A DNA stretch of 64,000 bases from Chloroflexota bacterium (lineage in GTDB: Bacteria > Chloroflexota > Dehalococcoidia > UBA2979): the NCBI GenBank assembly GCA_947472995.1, contig CANJBO010000007.1, positions 1 through 64,000 on the forward strand. The letters are read 5' to 3'. A program made the translations under genes and the position numbers. The notes beneath the pieces were generated by a model. It was not told the DNA's origin and searched no databases. It saw only the letters and a list, made by a program, of their open reading frames with translations. This document shows positions 2,786 to 53,800 of this stretch, piece after piece (position 1 is the first letter of the stretch; every line of letters begins with the position of its first letter).

Positions 2786-2830
2786 AGAACCCCTCCCGCA
2801 CCGGGAGGGGCAGGGGTGGGCCGGCCCACG
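2786..2830. repeat. GC-rich hairpin repeat, family 2, copy 1
   Basis: Hairpin CCCCTCCC-GCACC-GGGAGGGG followed by CAGGGGTGGG. It has the same plan (hairpin, then TGGGGTG-like tail) as copies at 33614, 44744, 52523 and 52921. It lies in about 290 bp of gene-free DNA (2623-2916) that otherwise shows only a second small hairpin, GGGGGC-GGAG-CCCCC, near 2760. Confidence 0.65.
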
Positions 2831-16818: not shown

Positions 16819-19800
16819 CGACGCCCGTGCCCACGCCGGTCCCGACGCCGACGCCAGCCCCCACGCCGAGCCCGACGCCCACCGCCACGCCGACTGTCAC
16901 GCCGACGGCGACCCCCACGGCGACGCCGACGGCCACCGCGACCCCGACCGCCACGCCGGCACCCACGCGCAACGGCTTCACGAACAACATCATCCCCGGC
17001 GTCACCGGTCCCGCCGATGGCTCGGCTGTCGAGGCGAACGCGACGAAGCTGGACCCCAGCCTGTTCGAGGTGTCGCGCGCGACGCGTGCCGTCCTGCAGC
17101 GCGGCGCGGTCCCGAACGCGGCGACCACGCGACAGGCCTCGGCGGCGGTCGCGGCGCTCACCAACTCGAACCGCCTGCGCTTCACCGGCGACAGCGTCGA
17201 CCTGTACGTGGACTGGGCGACGCCCGGCGCGTCGCCGCGCGCAGCGCTCGCCGCCGCGGGCGCGGCCGTCGTCGCGGAGAGCCCGACGAAGGGCGTCTCG
17301 CAGGTGCGCGTCCCGCTCTCCCGCCTCGACGCGCTGACCACGCTGCCCGGCGTGAAGCTCGTGCGTCTGCCCGAGGTGGCGACGGTGAACGTCGGCTCAC
17401 AGATGACCGAGGGCGACCTCGCGCAGCAGCTGGACAGCCTGCGCGCCGCCGCCAACGTGACCGGCGCGGGGATCCGCGTGGGCGTGATCTCCGACGGAAT
17501 CAAGGGTCTCTCGGTCGCCGACGGTCTCGGTGACATCCCGGACACCGTCACTAGCACGACCGACCCGGACAAGCCCTCGTGCACGACGCCCGGCACGATC
17601 AAGCGCACCACGGGTGGCGTCACCGCGAAGTCGTTCCGCCCCGACTGCAACCTCGAAGCGGGCTTCGGCAGCAGCGGCGCCGAGGGCACGGCTATCCTCG
17701 AGATCGTCCACGACATCGCGCCCGACGCCGAGCTGTGGTTCGCGAACTTCGACGGCTTCAGCGTGACGTTCGAGCAGGCCGTGAACTACCTCGCGCTGAA
17801 CTGCGACATCGTCATCGACGACATCAGCTTCTTCGCCCCGCCGTACGACGGCACCAGCAGCGTCTCCACCAACACCACGAACGCGCTCGCGAACCCCACG
17901 AACCGCATCCGCTCGTACGTCACGTCGGCGGGCAACCAGGCGCAGAACCACTGGCAGGAGACGTTCACCCCGTCGAGCGTCAACGTCGGCACCCTCGTCG
18001 GCGGGCAGGGCGGGAACCTGCACCTCTTCCAGGCGACCGCGACCACGGTCGACAACGGGTTCGGCCAGCCCACCGCGTTCAACGCGGTCCAGGTGCCGGA
18101 CGGTGGCACCGCGACGGTGATGCTGACGTGGAACGACCCGTGGGGCGCCTCCACGAACAACTACGAGATGGTGATCGCGCGCGTCGACGGCACGGCGCCC
18201 AACCAGTTCCTCACGCTCGTCGGCTCCAGCACCACGGTGCAGAACGGCGCGGCCAACCCGTTCGAGTCGGTGACGTTCCAGAACCTCACCGGGTCCGTGA
18301 AGCAGTACGACATCCTCGTCTGGAACAAGAACAACGCCGCCGCGACCAGGAGCCTCGAGCTGTTCGTCGTGGGCGACCTCGACGTGTCCTTCGCGTGGCA
18401 GACGTCCGCCGGCTCCCTGCTCGCGCAGGCCGACGCGCGCGGCGACGCGATCTCCGTCGGCGCGGTGCCGCAGACCAGCGTCAACACCATCGAGGGCTTC
18501 AGCTCGCAGGGCCCGACCGAAGACGGCCGGCGCAAACCCGACGTGGTCGCTACCGACGGCGTCTCGGTCACCGGCTCCGGCGGGTTCCCGTCGGTGTTCT
18601 TCGGCACGTCCGCCTCGGCGCCCCACGTCGCCGCGCTGGGCGCGCTGCTGATGGAGGCGCACCCGCGCCTGAAGACCGGCACGCCGAACGCGCTCACCCC
18701 GGCGGCCGCGCGCACCAGCCTGCGCAATATCATCACGACCGGGACGATCGACCTCGGCACCGCGGGCGCGGACAACGTGTTCGGCAGCGGGCGCATCGAC
18801 GGCATCGCCGCGTCCACGACGGGTGGACCGCCCTCGACGATGGCGTTCGCCAGCGGTCCGGCAAACGGCACGACCGGGGTCGCGGGCGCCGCGGTGGCCA
18901 ACGGGCTGTTCTACCTCCAGCCGGTGATCCGGCTGAAGGACGCGCTCGACAACAACGCGACGGGCACCGACTCCGTGACGATCGCGCTCCGACCCGACAC
19001 CGCCAACGGCGCGACGCTGAGCAGCCTGAGCGGCAACCTCACGCGCGCCGCCGTCAACGGCGTCGCCACGTTCACCGACCTCAAGATCGACCGTCCCGGC
19101 ACCGGCTACGTCCTCGTCGCGAGCGCGCCCGGCCTCGTGGACGTCGAGGGCGCGCCGTTCGACGTGACGCTCGGCACGACCGGGCAGGGCTTCAGCAAGA
19201 TCACCGCGGGCGCCACGCACAGCTGCGCCACCACGACCACCGGCACCATGTTCTGCTGGGGCGACGCGACCTTCGGCGAGCTGGGCAACGGCACGCGCGG
19301 CCCGGTGCAGCCGAACCCGGTGTTCCCCACCGACTACGTCGCGAACCTCACCGCCGTCGGCGTCTCGGGCTTCGGCTCCGGCACGCTGTCGATCAGCGCG
19401 GGCGGCACGTTCTCCTGCGGTGTCACGGGCGCCGGGGCGGCGCTGTGCTGGGGCAACAACTGGGGCTCCTCCGGCGCGCTGGGCAGCGGCGTGGCCTCGC
19501 CGTTCGTCTGGACCACCCCGAAGCCCGTCTCGACGCTGTCGAGCGGCGTCGCCTCGATCAGCGCGGGCGGCAAGTTCGCGTGCGCTGTGACCACCGGCGG
19601 CGGCGCGAAGTGCTGGGGCACCGGCACGCAGGGCACGATCGGCAACGGCACGAACGCGACGAACAACGTGCTCCCGCAGAACGTCACCGGCCTCACCAGC
19701 GGCGTCGCGGACGTCGCCGCCGGCGGCACGTTCGTCTGCGCGCGCACGACCGGCGGCGGCGTGAAGTGCTGGGGCGACAACGAGCACGGCTCGCTCGGCG

Positions 19801-22760
19801 ACTCCACGCTCGCCGCGGGCGTCGGCGTCTTCAGCAACGTCCCGCGCGACGTCACCGGCCTCGGTACCGGCGTGTCGATGATCTCCGCGGGCGCGTCCCA
19901 CGCGTGCGCGATGCTCGGCGGCGGCACGGTGCAGTGCTGGGGCCTCAACAACAAGGGCCAGCTCGGCAACGGCACCACCACCAGCAGCAACACCCCGGTG
20001 ACCGTCACCGGCCTGACCGGGGTCGTCGCGATCGCGGCGGCGGGGCACTCGACGTGCGCGCTGCGGACGGGCGGCGACGTGATGTGCTGGGGCAGCAACG
20101 AGTTCGGCCAGTTCGGCAACGGCAGCGCGAGCGCCTCGAGCACCGCGCCCGTCGCCGTCACCGGCCTGACCAGCGGCGTCACCGCCCTCGACGGCGGCGT
20201 CGGGCACATGTGCGCGATCCAGACGGGCGTCGTGAAGTGCTGGGGCGACAACACGCTCGGCCAGCTCGGCACCGGCTCGCTGACCTCGACGAACATCCCC
20301 GCCGTGCTCTCCACGATCGCGCCGAGCGTGCGCGCGGTGACGCAGCCGAGCGGCACGATCGCGGTCGGCTCCAACTGGACCGGCCAGCCCGTGTTCCACA
20401 TCACCGACGCGGACGGCAACCTGCTGACCAACAGCACCGCCACCGTCACCGTCGGGATCAAGCCGGGCACCGGCGCGGTCGGCTCGACGCTCCAGGGCAC
20501 GACCAGCGTGGCCGCCGTCGGCGGCATCGCGACGTTCACCAACCTGCGCATCGACTCCGCGAGCGCCGGCTACGTGCTGGTCGCGAGCGCGAGCGGCTTC
20601 AGCTCCGGCGAGACGAATCCGTTCACCGTCGCGCCGCAGGGCCCGGCCGTCACGCTGTCGATCCAGACGCAGCCGGGCAACGGCACCGCGGGCTCCTCGC
20701 TCAGCGCGCAGCCGGTGATCCGCCTGCTCGACGCGAACGGCAACCTCGTCGTCGGTGGCACCGACGCCGTGACCGTCGAGGTGAAGGCGCACCCGTCGCG
20801 CTTCGGTGCCGAGTTCATCGGCATGACGACCGTCAACGCCGTCGGCGGCATCGCGACGTTCACGAACCTGCGCATCGACTTCGCCGCGGTCGGCCACGTG
20901 CTGACGTTCCGCGCGAACGGCATCCCCGCGGTCGACTCGAACGCGATCACGATCATCCCGGCCGCGGCCTCGAAGGTCATGTTCAACGCGCAGCCGGGCG
21001 GCGGCGTCGCCACCTCCACCCTGCGAGGTCAGCCGACCGTCCGCGTCACGGATGCGTACGACAACACAATCACCGGCTCCTCCGCGAACGTCGCGGTCAC
21101 GATCAAGTCCGGCACGACCGGGGCAGTCCTCGGCGGGACGACGAGCGTCGCGGCCTCGTCCGGCGTGGCGACGTTCACCAACCTCACGATCGACCTCGCC
21201 GGCGCGAGCTACGTGCTGACAGCGGCGTCGAGCGGGTTGACCTCCTCCGACAGCACGGCGTTCACGGTGGGCACCTCGGCGCTGCGCGTGCAGACGGCGC
21301 CCGCGACGTTCACCGGCGGCACGCCGTTCGGCACGCAGCCGGTCTTCGCGATCGACAGCAGTGCGAGCAGCCCGATCGCCGGGGCGACCGACAACGTCAC
21401 CGTCAGCATCAAGAGCGGCACCGGCACCTCGGGCGCCATGCTGACGGGCACGACGACCGTCCCCGCGGTCAACGGCGTCGCCACGTTCTCCGGTCTGAAG
21501 ATCGACCGCGCCGGCCGCGGCTACGTCCTCGTCGCCACCACATCCGGCCGCGCCGCCGTCGAGACCGCGCCGTTCGATGTCCTCTACGGCGCGCCGGTCG
21601 CGCTCGCCTTCGGCACCTCGCCGAGCGGTGCGGTGCCGGGGTCGATGTTCACCGGGCAGCCGGTCGTGAACGTCGTCGATGCGGGCGGGAACACCGTCCT
21701 CACCTCGACGAACACGGTCACCGTCGCGATCACGAGCGGGACCGGCGGCGCCGTGCTCTCCGGCCTCCCGACGGTGACGGCGGTCAACGGCAGCGCGAGG
21801 TTCTTCAACTTCGCGATCGACCTCGTGGGGACCTACGTGCTCCAGGCCACGACCACCGGCGGACCGACGGCCGCGGACAGCGCGGCGTTCAACGTCGCCG
21901 TGCCATTCGTCCCGCCGTCAGGCGGTGGTGGCGGCGGCAGCGGCGGCGGCGGGGTGCCGGTGCTGACGGTCACGCCCGGGGGCGCGCAGGTGCCGACGGG
22001 CCAGCTCGTGGGTGCGGTCGTGCCGCAGAGCGGCGCGGACCTGACGCTGAAGTCGCCGTCGTACACCGACGGCCCGGGCAACGCGCCGGGCGGCACCGTC
22101 ACGCTCACGGTCTCCGCGGGCGCGATCCCCGGCGCCGACCAGATCGCGATCCAGCCGGTGCGCGACATCGAGAAGCTGCTCGAGGTCGCCCCACTCGGGA
22201 GCGGCACGATCATCACAGCAGTGTTCCTCGCCACGCTGGACACCTCGAACCAGCCGATCATCACCGCTTTCGCGGACACGGTGGACCTCACCATGACCGT
22301 GCCGCCCGGCGCTCTCCCGAACGGCGCGGCCCCCGGCGACTTCGTCATCGCGTTCTTCGACAAGGGCGCATGGGTTGAGCTCAAGACGACCGCGATGTTC
22401 GAGAGCAACGAGGTGCTGGTGCTGAAGGCAGACGTGAACCACTTCACGCCGTTCGCGGTGATCTACAAGAAGGGCGGCAGCACGACCACGCCGCCCGTCG
22501 CCACGACCGGCACCGGTCGCTTCATCACGACGCCGGTGCTGGGGGCGGGCGGGCTCGCGCTCGCCGTGTTCGGCGGCGGCAGCGTGGACCAGCTCGAGGC
22601 GGCGACCGGCGACATCGCGGCGCGCGGCGTGTGGGTGCAGGACCGGACGGGCGCGTTCCACCTGCTGGTGGTCAACGGGCCGGCGTTCCTCCGCCGCGAG
22701 TTCGCCAGCTTCTTCCCGAGCGGCTTCCCCGGGACGACCGCGGTGACGATCACGAAGTAG
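16819..22760 (+). CDS. giant secreted S8/S53-like protease with RCC1 and Ig-like repeats, 5' end lost
   Basis: About 1980 codons. A Pro-Thr linker (to about 16970) is followed by a subtilisin/sedolisin-like domain. Asp is in GVISDG near 17490; GAEGTAILEIVHD near 17690 has Glu where subtilisins have His of HGT; Asn is in TSAGN and Ser in GTSASAPHVA near 18610. One Ig-like repeat (about 18840-19180), seven or so RCC1-type repeats with CWG motifs (19195-20330), five Ig-like repeats (20340-21900), a Gly-rich linker and a final beta domain follow. No signal peptide is visible. The frame stays open to 16587, but that part is antisense of the TPR fragment. It is expected to act outside the cell on proteins; the targets are unknown. 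Confidence 0.75.
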
Positions 22761-33613: not shown

Positions 33614-33650
33614 TCCCCTCCCCCCTCGCGGGGGAGGGTGGGTGGCTTCG
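33614..33650. repeat. GC-rich hairpin repeat, family 2, copy 2
   Basis: CCCCTCCCCCCTCGCGGGGG then AGGG-TGGGTGG. The first 24 bases are identical to the copy at 52523 upstream of the DUF559 gene. It stands alone here, without a nuclease gene. Confidence 0.75.
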
Positions 33651-44743: not shown

Positions 44744-44829
44744 CCCTCACCCTGCCCTCTGCCATTCATGGAGAGGTTTCCGACCTCGGGCTCCCTCGCC
44801 CACGCAGTGGGAGAGGGTTGGGGTGAGGG
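44744..44829. repeat. GC-rich hairpin repeat, family 2, copy 3, with paired ends
   Basis: 86-bp element. CCCTCACCCTGCCCTCT at its left end is nearly the reverse complement of AGAGGGTTGGGGTGAGGG at its right end. The right part also contains the CCCTCGCCCAC/GTGGGAGAGGG hairpin and the TGGGGTG tail of the family. It contains no gene and looks like a deletion derivative of the DUF559 element. It lies 13 bp from the secA stop. Confidence 0.72.
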
Positions 44830-44842
44830 CTCTGCCGCGCCG

Positions 44843-49763: not shown

Positions 49764-52478
<2,715 letters not shown>

Positions 52479-52522
52479 GCGAACACGGCCATCACGGGGC
52501 CAGCGTAGAGTCGAGGCAGATT

Positions 52523-52564
52523 CTGCCCCCTCCCCCCTCGCGGGGGAGGGCTGGGGTGGGGGTC
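52523..52564. repeat. GC-rich hairpin repeat, family 2, copy 4 (left inverted end of DUF559 element)
   Basis: CCCCCTCCCCCC-TCGC-GGGGGAGGG then CTGGGGTGGGGGT. It ends 7 bp before the DUF559 start codon. It is the inverted counterpart of copy 5 at 52921-52958. Confidence 0.8.
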
Positions 52565-52571
52565 CCGTCCG

Positions 52572-52973
52572 ATGCCCGACCTCAGTTGGATCGCGCAACG
52601 CGCCCGTGATCTCCGCAACGATCCGACCGACGCCGAACGCCGCCTCTGGCGCGCTCTGCGTCATCGACGCTTCGCCGGCCACAAGTTCCGGCGACAGGAG
52701 CCCCTCGGTGCGTACATCGTGGACTTCGCCTGCCTCGACGCGCGTCTCATCGTGGAGGTGGACGGTGCGCAGCACCTCGAACAGCAGCGCGAGCACGACG
52801 TCGCGCGCGACGAATGGCTGGGCGAGCAGGGCTTCCGCGTCCTGCGGTTCTGGGACTCCCAGATCCTGAACGCACCCGACGAGGTCGACCAGGCGATCTG
52901 GCAGGCGCTGGAACAGGAACCCCCACGCCAACCCTCCCCCGTGAAGGGGGAGGGGGCCGGAGTCGCCGAATGA
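52572..52973 (+). CDS. DUF559 (Vsr-like PD-(D/E)XK fold) endonuclease-like protein
   Basis: 133 residues. ARDLRNDPTDAERRLWRALR, FRRQEPLGAYIVDFACLDARLIVEVDGAQH and DEWLGEQGFRVLRFWDSQI are the DUF559 hallmarks. VDF and EVDGAQH supply the Asp and Glu-x-Asp of a Vsr-like nuclease site. The C-terminal 17 residues (QPSPVKGEGAGVAE at the end) are translation of the right repeat. There is no ribosome binding site; the left repeat abuts the ATG. The stop overlaps the inositol monophosphatase start (ATGA). The substrate is unknown; DNA cleavage is inferred from the fold. Confidence 0.82.
   Translation: MPDLSWIAQRARDLRNDPTDAERRLWRALRHRRFAGHKFRRQEPLGAYIVDFACLDARLIVEVDGAQHLEQQREHDVARDEWLGEQGFRVLRFWDSQILNAPDEVDQAIWQALEQEPPRQPSPVKGEGAGVAE
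52921..52958. repeat. GC-rich hairpin repeat, family 2, copy 5 (right inverted end)
   Basis: CCCCACGCCAACCCTCCCCC, GTGA, then GGGGGAGGGGGCC. Read on the minus strand it has the same hairpin and TGGCGTGGGGG tail as copy 4. It forms the last codons of the DUF559 gene. Confidence 0.78.
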
Positions 52974-53800
52974 CCTCCAACTCGCCAGACCCGGCCGCGC
53001 TTGGCGCGCTCGCGCAGGCGGTAGCCCGCGAGGCGGGGGCGCTTCTGATGGAGCGCCTCGCCGGGACGCGCGAGATCGATACGAAGACCAGCCCGGTGGA
53101 CGTGGTGACCGAGGTCGACCGCGCCTCCGAGGCGCTGATCGTCCGTCGCATCCTGGAGGCGCGCCCGGGCGACGGGTTCCTTGGCGAGGAGGGGGCGGAC
53201 CGCGCCTCCACCAGCGGGGTGCGCTGGATCGTCGATCCGATCGACGGGACGGTGAACTACCTCTACCGCCGCCCGGACTTCGCCGTCTGCATCGCCGCCG
53301 AGGTGGCGGGCGAGGTGGTCGCCGGCGCCGTCTACAACCCCTTTCTTGACGAGTTATTCGCGGCGGTGGCCGGCGAGGGCGCGACGAGGAACGGCGAGCC
53401 GCTCCACGTCTCCACCGAGGCGCGCCTCGACCACGCTCTGTGCGGCACCGGCTTCGACTACCGGGTAGAGGGACGCCGCGCCCAGGGGCCGGTCCTCGCG
53501 CGGGTCGTCACGGAGGTCCGCGACATCCGGCGCGCGGGCTCGGCGGCCCTCGACCTCTGCGCCGTCGCGTGCGGGCGGCTCGACGTCTATTACGAGCGTG
53601 GAGTGCACCTCTGGGACATCGCCGCTGCCGGGCTCATCGTCCGCGAGGCCGGCGGCCACGCGGAGACGCTGGACGGCGGCCCCGTCGAGGACAACATGTG
53701 GATCGCAACCAACGCCGCGCTGTTCCCCGCGTTCCGCGCGCTGATCCTCGATGCCACAGAGGATGCCACGGGCGAGGCCGCGGAGCATGCCGCGCAGTGA
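52970..53800 (+). CDS. inositol monophosphatase family protein
   Basis: 276 residues. The metal and substrate motifs are FLGEEG, VDPIDGTVNYLYRRP and, near the C-terminus, LWDIAAAGLIVREAGG. It dephosphorylates inositol phosphates or related sugar phosphates with Mg2+. The start ATG overlaps the stop of the DUF559 gene, so the element insertion may have replaced the original upstream region. About 70 bp after its stop lies the nuo promoter. Confidence 0.92.
   Translation: MTSNSPDPAALGALAQAVAREAGALLMERLAGTREIDTKTSPVDVVTEVDRASEALIVRRILEARPGDGFLGEEGADRASTSGVRWIVDPIDGTVNYLYRRPDFAVCIAAEVAGEVVAGAVYNPFLDELFAAVAGEGATRNGEPLHVSTEARLDHALCGTGFDYRVEGRRAQGPVLARVVTEVRDIRRAGSAALDLCAVACGRLDVYYERGVHLWDIAAAGLIVREAGGHAETLDGGPVEDNMWIATNAALFPAFRALILDATEDATGEAAEHAAQ

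Follow-up and report, generated by a model that had tools for sequence, protein, structure and literature searches.

The repeats most similar to those described here are the BoxC/PIT/TM elements, familiar from E. coli since the 1990s but with no function or origin attached to them. E. coli K-12 carries 23 of these, frequently as inverted pairs, with no mobility gene found near any E. coli copy (PMC4666352), and Enterobacter 638 contains palindromes of the same repeat type (PMC2869309). As an isolated single strand the E. coli motif folds into a triplex in vitro; in living E. coli cells no stable triplex was observed (PMC4666352), and E. coli PIT elements showed neither promoter nor terminator activity (cited in PMC4666352). 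DUF559 is a large protein family with a mostly unexplained role. Its membership in the PD-(D/E)XK superfamily was already known (PMC1189080), and a Caulobacter DUF559 protein, VsrA, has a role in damage to DNA that is connected with cytosine methylation (PMC12907096). Three segments of Legionella pneumophila in which a transposase accompanies DUF559 are reported to be hotspots of intragenomic recombination (PMC12308824), an observation compatible with a repeat-linked mobile role of DUF559.

In the window, the whole 64,000-nucleotide stretch of Chloroflexota DNA analyzed here, a gene for a DUF559 (PF04480) Vsr-like PD-(D/E)XK nuclease (52572..52973, + strand, 133 amino acids, identified by profile match and fold model) lies between valS on its left (49764..52478, + strand) and a suhB-like inositol monophosphatase gene on its right (52970..53800, + strand). 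An earlier note on this DNA had placed the gene between inverted copies of a dispersed repeat, and the DUF559 domain is indeed enclosed by two G-rich 42-nt inverted repeats (52525-52566 and 52916-52957) that are 88% complementary and 349 nt apart. The left copy (+ strand, inverted-repeat search) is a triplex-hairpin repeat of the BoxC/PIT/TM type, 'G' subtype, with the stem CCCTCCCCC..GGGGGAGGG, a linker of 3 nt and a third strand, GGGTGGGGG, directed at the gene. The right copy (- strand) is translated as part of the DUF559 ORF, and the C-terminal tail of the protein, PRQPSPVKGEGAGVAE, is the translation of this copy, just as the note had read it. The DUF559 stop codon TGA (52971-52973) overlaps the suhB ATG at 52970, and a 46-bp spacer (52479..52524) separates the valS stop from the left repeat. 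Together the gene and its two repeats form a unit of ~430 bp. Elsewhere in the window, positions 19001-21600 contain tandem coding repeats of ~156 bp and ~320 bp whose appearance is that of RCC1-type and Ig-like repeats in a large surface protein.

The ORF matched PF04480 with an E-value of 1.1e-40 and 138.3 bits (curated cut-off 20.6). The only other Pfam match was the overlapping same-fold model MTES_1575, and no DDE, HUH or recombinase domain was detected in the window protein with Pfam. In a fold model of the DUF559 protein (pLDDT 91.8) the closest solved folds were the DUF559 structure 3hrl (Z 15.8), the homing endonuclease I-Bth0305I (12.1), Vsr (10.0) and TnsA (7.3). Residues E22, D51, E62, D64 and H68 were invariant in 24 sequences, with the acidic and histidine residues at the predicted Vsr-like active site. 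DUF559 was rare on plasmids (40/72,556) and phages (2/50,697), the distribution expected of a resident chromosomal element.

Gene-free copies of the repeat had also been noted near positions 2786, 33614 and 44744, one of them paired. These were recovered as a copy at 2790..2821 (+ strand, inspected in the window), a hairpin with a degenerate third strand at 33615..33638 (+ strand, pattern search) and a composite of two inverted copies with outward third strands at 44744..44830. The hairpin pattern matched six times in the window against 0.07 expected, and the dispersal of the repeat extended to the whole genome, with 71 matches (two for a reversed-pattern control) in an assembly of 1.78 Mb that is 73% complete, so that the copy number of ~71 is that of an incomplete genome. 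The consensus is CCCTCTCCC-loop-GGGAGAGGG-NNN-GGGTGAGGG, plus variants. The window copies have the pyrimidine arm, loop, purine arm and mirror third strand of BoxC/PIT/TM, and like it the repeat is multicopy and dispersed in its genome. Judged from these features the window repeat is the known BoxC/PIT/'TM' intrastrand-triplex motif (PMC4666352) and is not itself new. The earlier view that no established account of such a system exists therefore stands for the link, as no report tying DUF559 to triplex repeats was found in the open-access literature searched, but not for the repeat. Rfam gave no match above the gathering score for the window stretch. If the 71 copies in 1.78 Mb were placed uniformly, the chance that a given gene has one on each side, no more than 300 bp away, would be ~1.4e-4, a value that intergenic clustering of repeats would increase. 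Chance or base composition as the source of the pattern was ruled out by shuffles, the reversed-pattern control and a GIY-YIG control. Numerous dispersed copies of an element of ~105 bp around 44744-44830 occur in congeners (G301, G303 and G305, with tens in G303 and G305); this composite is REPIN- or BIME-like in its dispersal.

Comparison within the genus revealed that the unit is polymorphic. It is present between valS and suhB in genomes G000 and G305 and absent from G303 and G301, where valS and suhB nearly abut (junctions TAACGACGTGACC and TAGCGATCGATGACC) and the 46-bp spacer is missing as well. The valS-suhB spacing is also tight in two more genomes of the family, which belong to other genera (G333 and G319), so the empty state is probably ancestral. 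The empty site in congeners showed no clear target duplication for the window unit. One copy of the ~105-bp composite adjoins the sole DUF559 gene of G301, and another adjoins that of G303.

Gene-bearing and gene-free forms were clearest in G111, a genome of another family, which holds three DUF559 units of ~580 bp and at least nine DUF559-less derivatives of ~300 bp at unrelated sites, all with the common ends TGTYCGRTCCCCGAG. The flanks of these copies carry 8-bp direct repeats centered on CTAG (8/8 in six copies, 7/8 in one, 6/8 in two and 4/8 in one), and in a congener (G071) one empty site has the target in single copy, confirming one insertion. An empty site with a target duplication, as envisaged in the earlier note, thus exists in G111/G071, and the genus of the window has the empty valS-suhB site, but among 91 other units with clear inverted ends no target duplication rose above a mispaired control. 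This rules out a universal target duplication, and G111 may have acquired another way of moving. In the G111 units DUF559 is the sole recognized ORF, with no DDE transposase inside. In the family that includes G111 (f39), four genomes (G087, G111, G215 and G282) have 7 to 13 DUF559 matches each, which suggests recent proliferation.

We consider it fairly probable that the nuclease gene and its folded-DNA ends constitute one unit, that the scattered BoxC/PIT/TM repeats are its gene-free relatives and that cutting by DUF559 drives their spread. The main rival is that an unlinked DDE transposase carries the units, at least in G111. DUF559 would then be a passenger captured between hairpins, in MITE-like units moved by an enzyme that makes 8-bp duplications. 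The classical terminal inverted repeats and CTAG-centered target duplications of G111 are typical of DDE enzymes, and the lack of duplication in DUF559 units outside G111 points the same way, yet we regard this explanation as unlikely: one and the same gene family occupies the space between hairpins in many phyla, where the outer sequences differ, repeated capture would be needed and each time of the DUF559 family, and no other gene was found inside TGTYCGRTCCCCGAG-ended units in the fragmented G111 assembly. A search of that fragmented assembly for other autonomous insertion sequences with the same ends returned, from the candidate end pairs, just more derivatives.

Spread of the unit through cutting by its own nuclease also has to be weighed against DUF559 being a homing-type endonuclease gene, whose product would cut DUF559-free chromosomes so that break repair copies the gene in, with the repeats as recognition sites or homology tracts. 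I-Bth0305I (Z 12.1) and Vsr (Z 10.0) are the nearest folds after 3hrl (Z 15.8), and the recombination hotspots formed by the Legionella DUF559 copies (PMC12308824) would agree with homing. However, the empty sites at valS-suhB and in G071 carry no repeat, which argues against homing into a repeat that was already there; nor do gene-free derivatives with target duplications fit, which leaves homing distinctly improbable. The copies compared on Azospirillum plasmids were all at one locus, with no empty allele, and at the E. coli ygfF-gcvP locus the boundaries were too diverged for reading. At E. coli hrpB-mrcB (L240 and L244-L248) K-12 has a BoxC pair that many other strains lack; O111:H8 retains a single hairpin of it, and in one ETEC strain the pair lies the other way round. 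The flanking TTTTCT and GACYG at hrpB-mrcB suggest that the E. coli element is longer than the two triplex motifs.

The association of DUF559 with the repeat was then surveyed beyond this locus. The genome of the window has just two DUF559 genes, both between repeat copies, one of the G subtype and one of the A subtype. All six genomes of the genus contain DUF559, and each has at least one DUF559 gene with hairpins on both sides or a composite pair at one side. Loci were taken from 301 genomes of the phylum (87 loci) and from across GTDB (80 loci, gathered with a narrower alignment that biases the set to closer DUF559 relatives), and pyrimidine-loop-purine hairpins were sought irrespective of sequence within 300 bp on each side of the gene. 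Hairpins were found on both sides of 51/87 phylum and 57/79 GTDB loci, and on at least one side of 72/87 and 74/79, respectively. The arrangement that the earlier note had proposed to test for, DUF559 always between inverted copies, accordingly applies to both genes of the window's genome but not throughout the wider samples, and DUF559 genes devoid of any hairpin within 300 bp do occur (20 of 166). Hairpin density fell from 5.4-8.2 per kb in the 100 bp next to the gene to 0.04-0.5 per kb beyond 450 bp. Left and right flanks matched as inverted repeats at 58 of 78 GTDB loci (including L202, a run of N that is to be discounted), compared with 14% when flanks of different loci were paired. The association was seen in Pseudomonadota, Myxococcota, Thermodesulfobacteriota, Nitrospirota, Chloroflexota, Elusimicrobiota and Melainabacteria. 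In E. coli K-12 the DUF559 gene ycjD has TMECO no. 9 past its 3' end and a degenerate hairpin across that end. These comparisons indicate that the link between DUF559 and the repeat is real, specific and cross-phylum. It is highly unlikely that DUF559 is an ordinary Vsr-like repair or defense enzyme whose neighboring repeats are either a frequent element of intergenic DNA or serve to control or end transcription of the gene: Caulobacter VsrA acts in cytosine-methylation-linked DNA damage (PMC12907096) and the repeat is widespread between genes, but hairpins flank none of 30 stand-alone GIY-YIG nuclease genes from the same 301 genomes (a control of one family and 30 loci) as against the 72/87 above, the flanks are locus-matched inverted pairs, and E. 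coli PIT elements showed none of the corresponding promoter or terminator activity.

The DUF559 ORF extends into the right-hand hairpin at 57 of the 115 loci that have one, giving tails such as PSPLRGEG and HPNPLPQAGEG, and part of many annotated DUF559 C-termini is thus translated repeat. The third strands of the nearest repeats at 81 loci were oriented in/in in 44 cases, out/out in 15 and mixed in 22, that is, mostly inward but not fixed. In the 301-genome phylum sample, tallied by hand from genome listings, DUF559 occurred in 38/57 repeat-rich genomes (at least 10 copies) and in 104/244 others (odds ratio 2.7, p 0.0012), and the cross-genome link is therefore moderate. The remaining 19 of 57 repeat-rich genomes, several of which have DUF559-bearing congeners, had no DUF559 match; strict co-occurrence of gene and repeat, to which the earlier note had tied its proposal, was not found. 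Both observations that the note had named as refuting its reading, DUF559 genes lacking flanking repeats and repeat-rich genomes lacking DUF559, have thus been made in part. The DUF559 phylogeny agreed weakly with repeat stem class (45 changes, 52.1 when shuffled), giving only a weak signal for tight protein-to-repeat sequence specificity in the tree comparison; such weak agreement would fit recognition of structure.

Stem sequences differ widely among loci (GGGAGAGGG, GGGGGAAGG, GGGAAGGGG, AAAGGGGG and others), and the strand past the 3-nt linker is the mirror of the stem. Among elements passing a mirror cut of 0.7, stem A faces third-strand A or T at 606 of 636 positions and stem G faces third-strand G at 2095 of 2222, counts that illustrate the rule rather than fully test it since this threshold favors well-matched elements. 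A mirror match of at least 85% was found in 218 of 393 flanking hairpins and in five when the downstream sequence was shuffled. With one representative per distinct stem the mirror effect was smaller (0.677 vs 0.598, p 0.00015). At a diagnostic position in the window's genome the pairs were A/A in 31 cases, G/G in 24 and mismatched in two. The third strand thus covaries with the stem in line with triplex pairing, the trace expected from selection on a purine-motif triplex. In the DUF559 flanks of four loci (L219, L224, L182 and L201) a second small hairpin lies inside the linker, as if bridging the third strand to the stem. One contig (C24 of G162; L098 and L100) carries tandem DUF559 genes with AT-richer hairpins, CCCCCTTTT..AAAGGGGG, and the matching third strand GGGGGATT.

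Association, inverted arrangement, covariation, insertion polymorphism and the presence in one genome of gene-bearing and gene-deleted copies with common ends are all supported at the level of sequence. From these we infer that DUF559 would bind and cut the repeats and thereby act as the driver of their spread. In the fairly probable explanation given above, DUF559 and its two inverted repeats would have inserted between valS and suhB as one unit, and the scattered hairpins, single or in inverted pairs of ~100 bp, would be its gene-free relatives. When single-stranded, the repeat would fold into a hairpin whose purine arm accepts the third strand; the DUF559 protein, with its Vsr / I-Bth0305I fold, may recognize this folded end and nick or cut beside it, and repair or replication may then carry copies of the enclosed DNA, gene included or not, to other sites. 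We propose more tentatively, as something just short of an even chance, that BoxC/PIT/TM repeats and DUF559 genes represent a single widespread mobile-DNA class in its gene-free and gene-bearing states, respectively, with a triplex-recognizing, stand-alone Vsr-like PD-(D/E)XK nuclease as mobilizer. The link between DUF559 and the repeat offers one testable explanation for both and a candidate partner enzyme for BoxC/PIT/TM, and ycjD makes the model testable in a laboratory strain of E. coli. If DUF559 acts on folded repeats, this would add a new mobile-DNA enzyme class and give intrastrand DNA triplexes a role in biology. Our results suggest that DUF559 with its mirror repeats is an undescribed kind of mobile element.

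DUF559 and its flanking triplex hairpins appear to behave as a REP/RAYT-like or IS/MITE-like unit. As in RAYT (TnpA_REP)/REP/REPIN systems, a nuclease gene, usually in few copies per genome, stands between oppositely oriented copies of a dispersed, palindromic hairpin repeat, gene-free repeats are scattered singly and as inverted pairs, and the gene is chromosomal and rare on plasmids. Orphan REPs without a RAYT also occur. The RAYT/REP-like pattern drawn in the earlier note therefore holds for the arrangement, with gene-bearing and gene-free forms, but not for the enzyme: RAYTs are HUH Y1 transposases (PF01797), whereas the window protein is a Vsr-like nuclease of the PF04480 family with a PD-(D/E)XK fold. 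The repeats differ as well, being triplex hairpins where REPs are GTAG/CGTC-tagged palindromes. The arrangement works like RAYT/REP without being a member, since the enzyme class differs. TIRYT/TIRtrons similarly have a gene between terminal inverted repeats and moderately abundant solo repeats, but their enzymes are Y1 tyrosine transposases (PMC3733652), which DUF559 is not. The G111 units resemble insertion sequences and MITEs with 8-bp duplications in their terminal inverted repeats, duplications, internally deleted derivatives and empty site; however, DUF559 units encode no known transposase class, and duplications were not seen above control in the 91 units outside G111. YcjD, VsrA, 3hrl, Vsr, I-Bth0305I and TnsA have a fold in common with the window protein (Z 7.3-15.8 for those compared). 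The closest match for the repeat remains BoxC/PIT/TM (TMECO in E. coli, and Enterobacter 638), with the same hairpin and mirror third strand, dispersed and intergenic, often in inverted pairs and present in many genomes (PMC4666352, PMC2869309). For BoxC/PIT/TM no gene partner or mobility function had been found before, and to this we add a gene partner, its position flanking DUF559 and a much wider range of stems with matching third strands.
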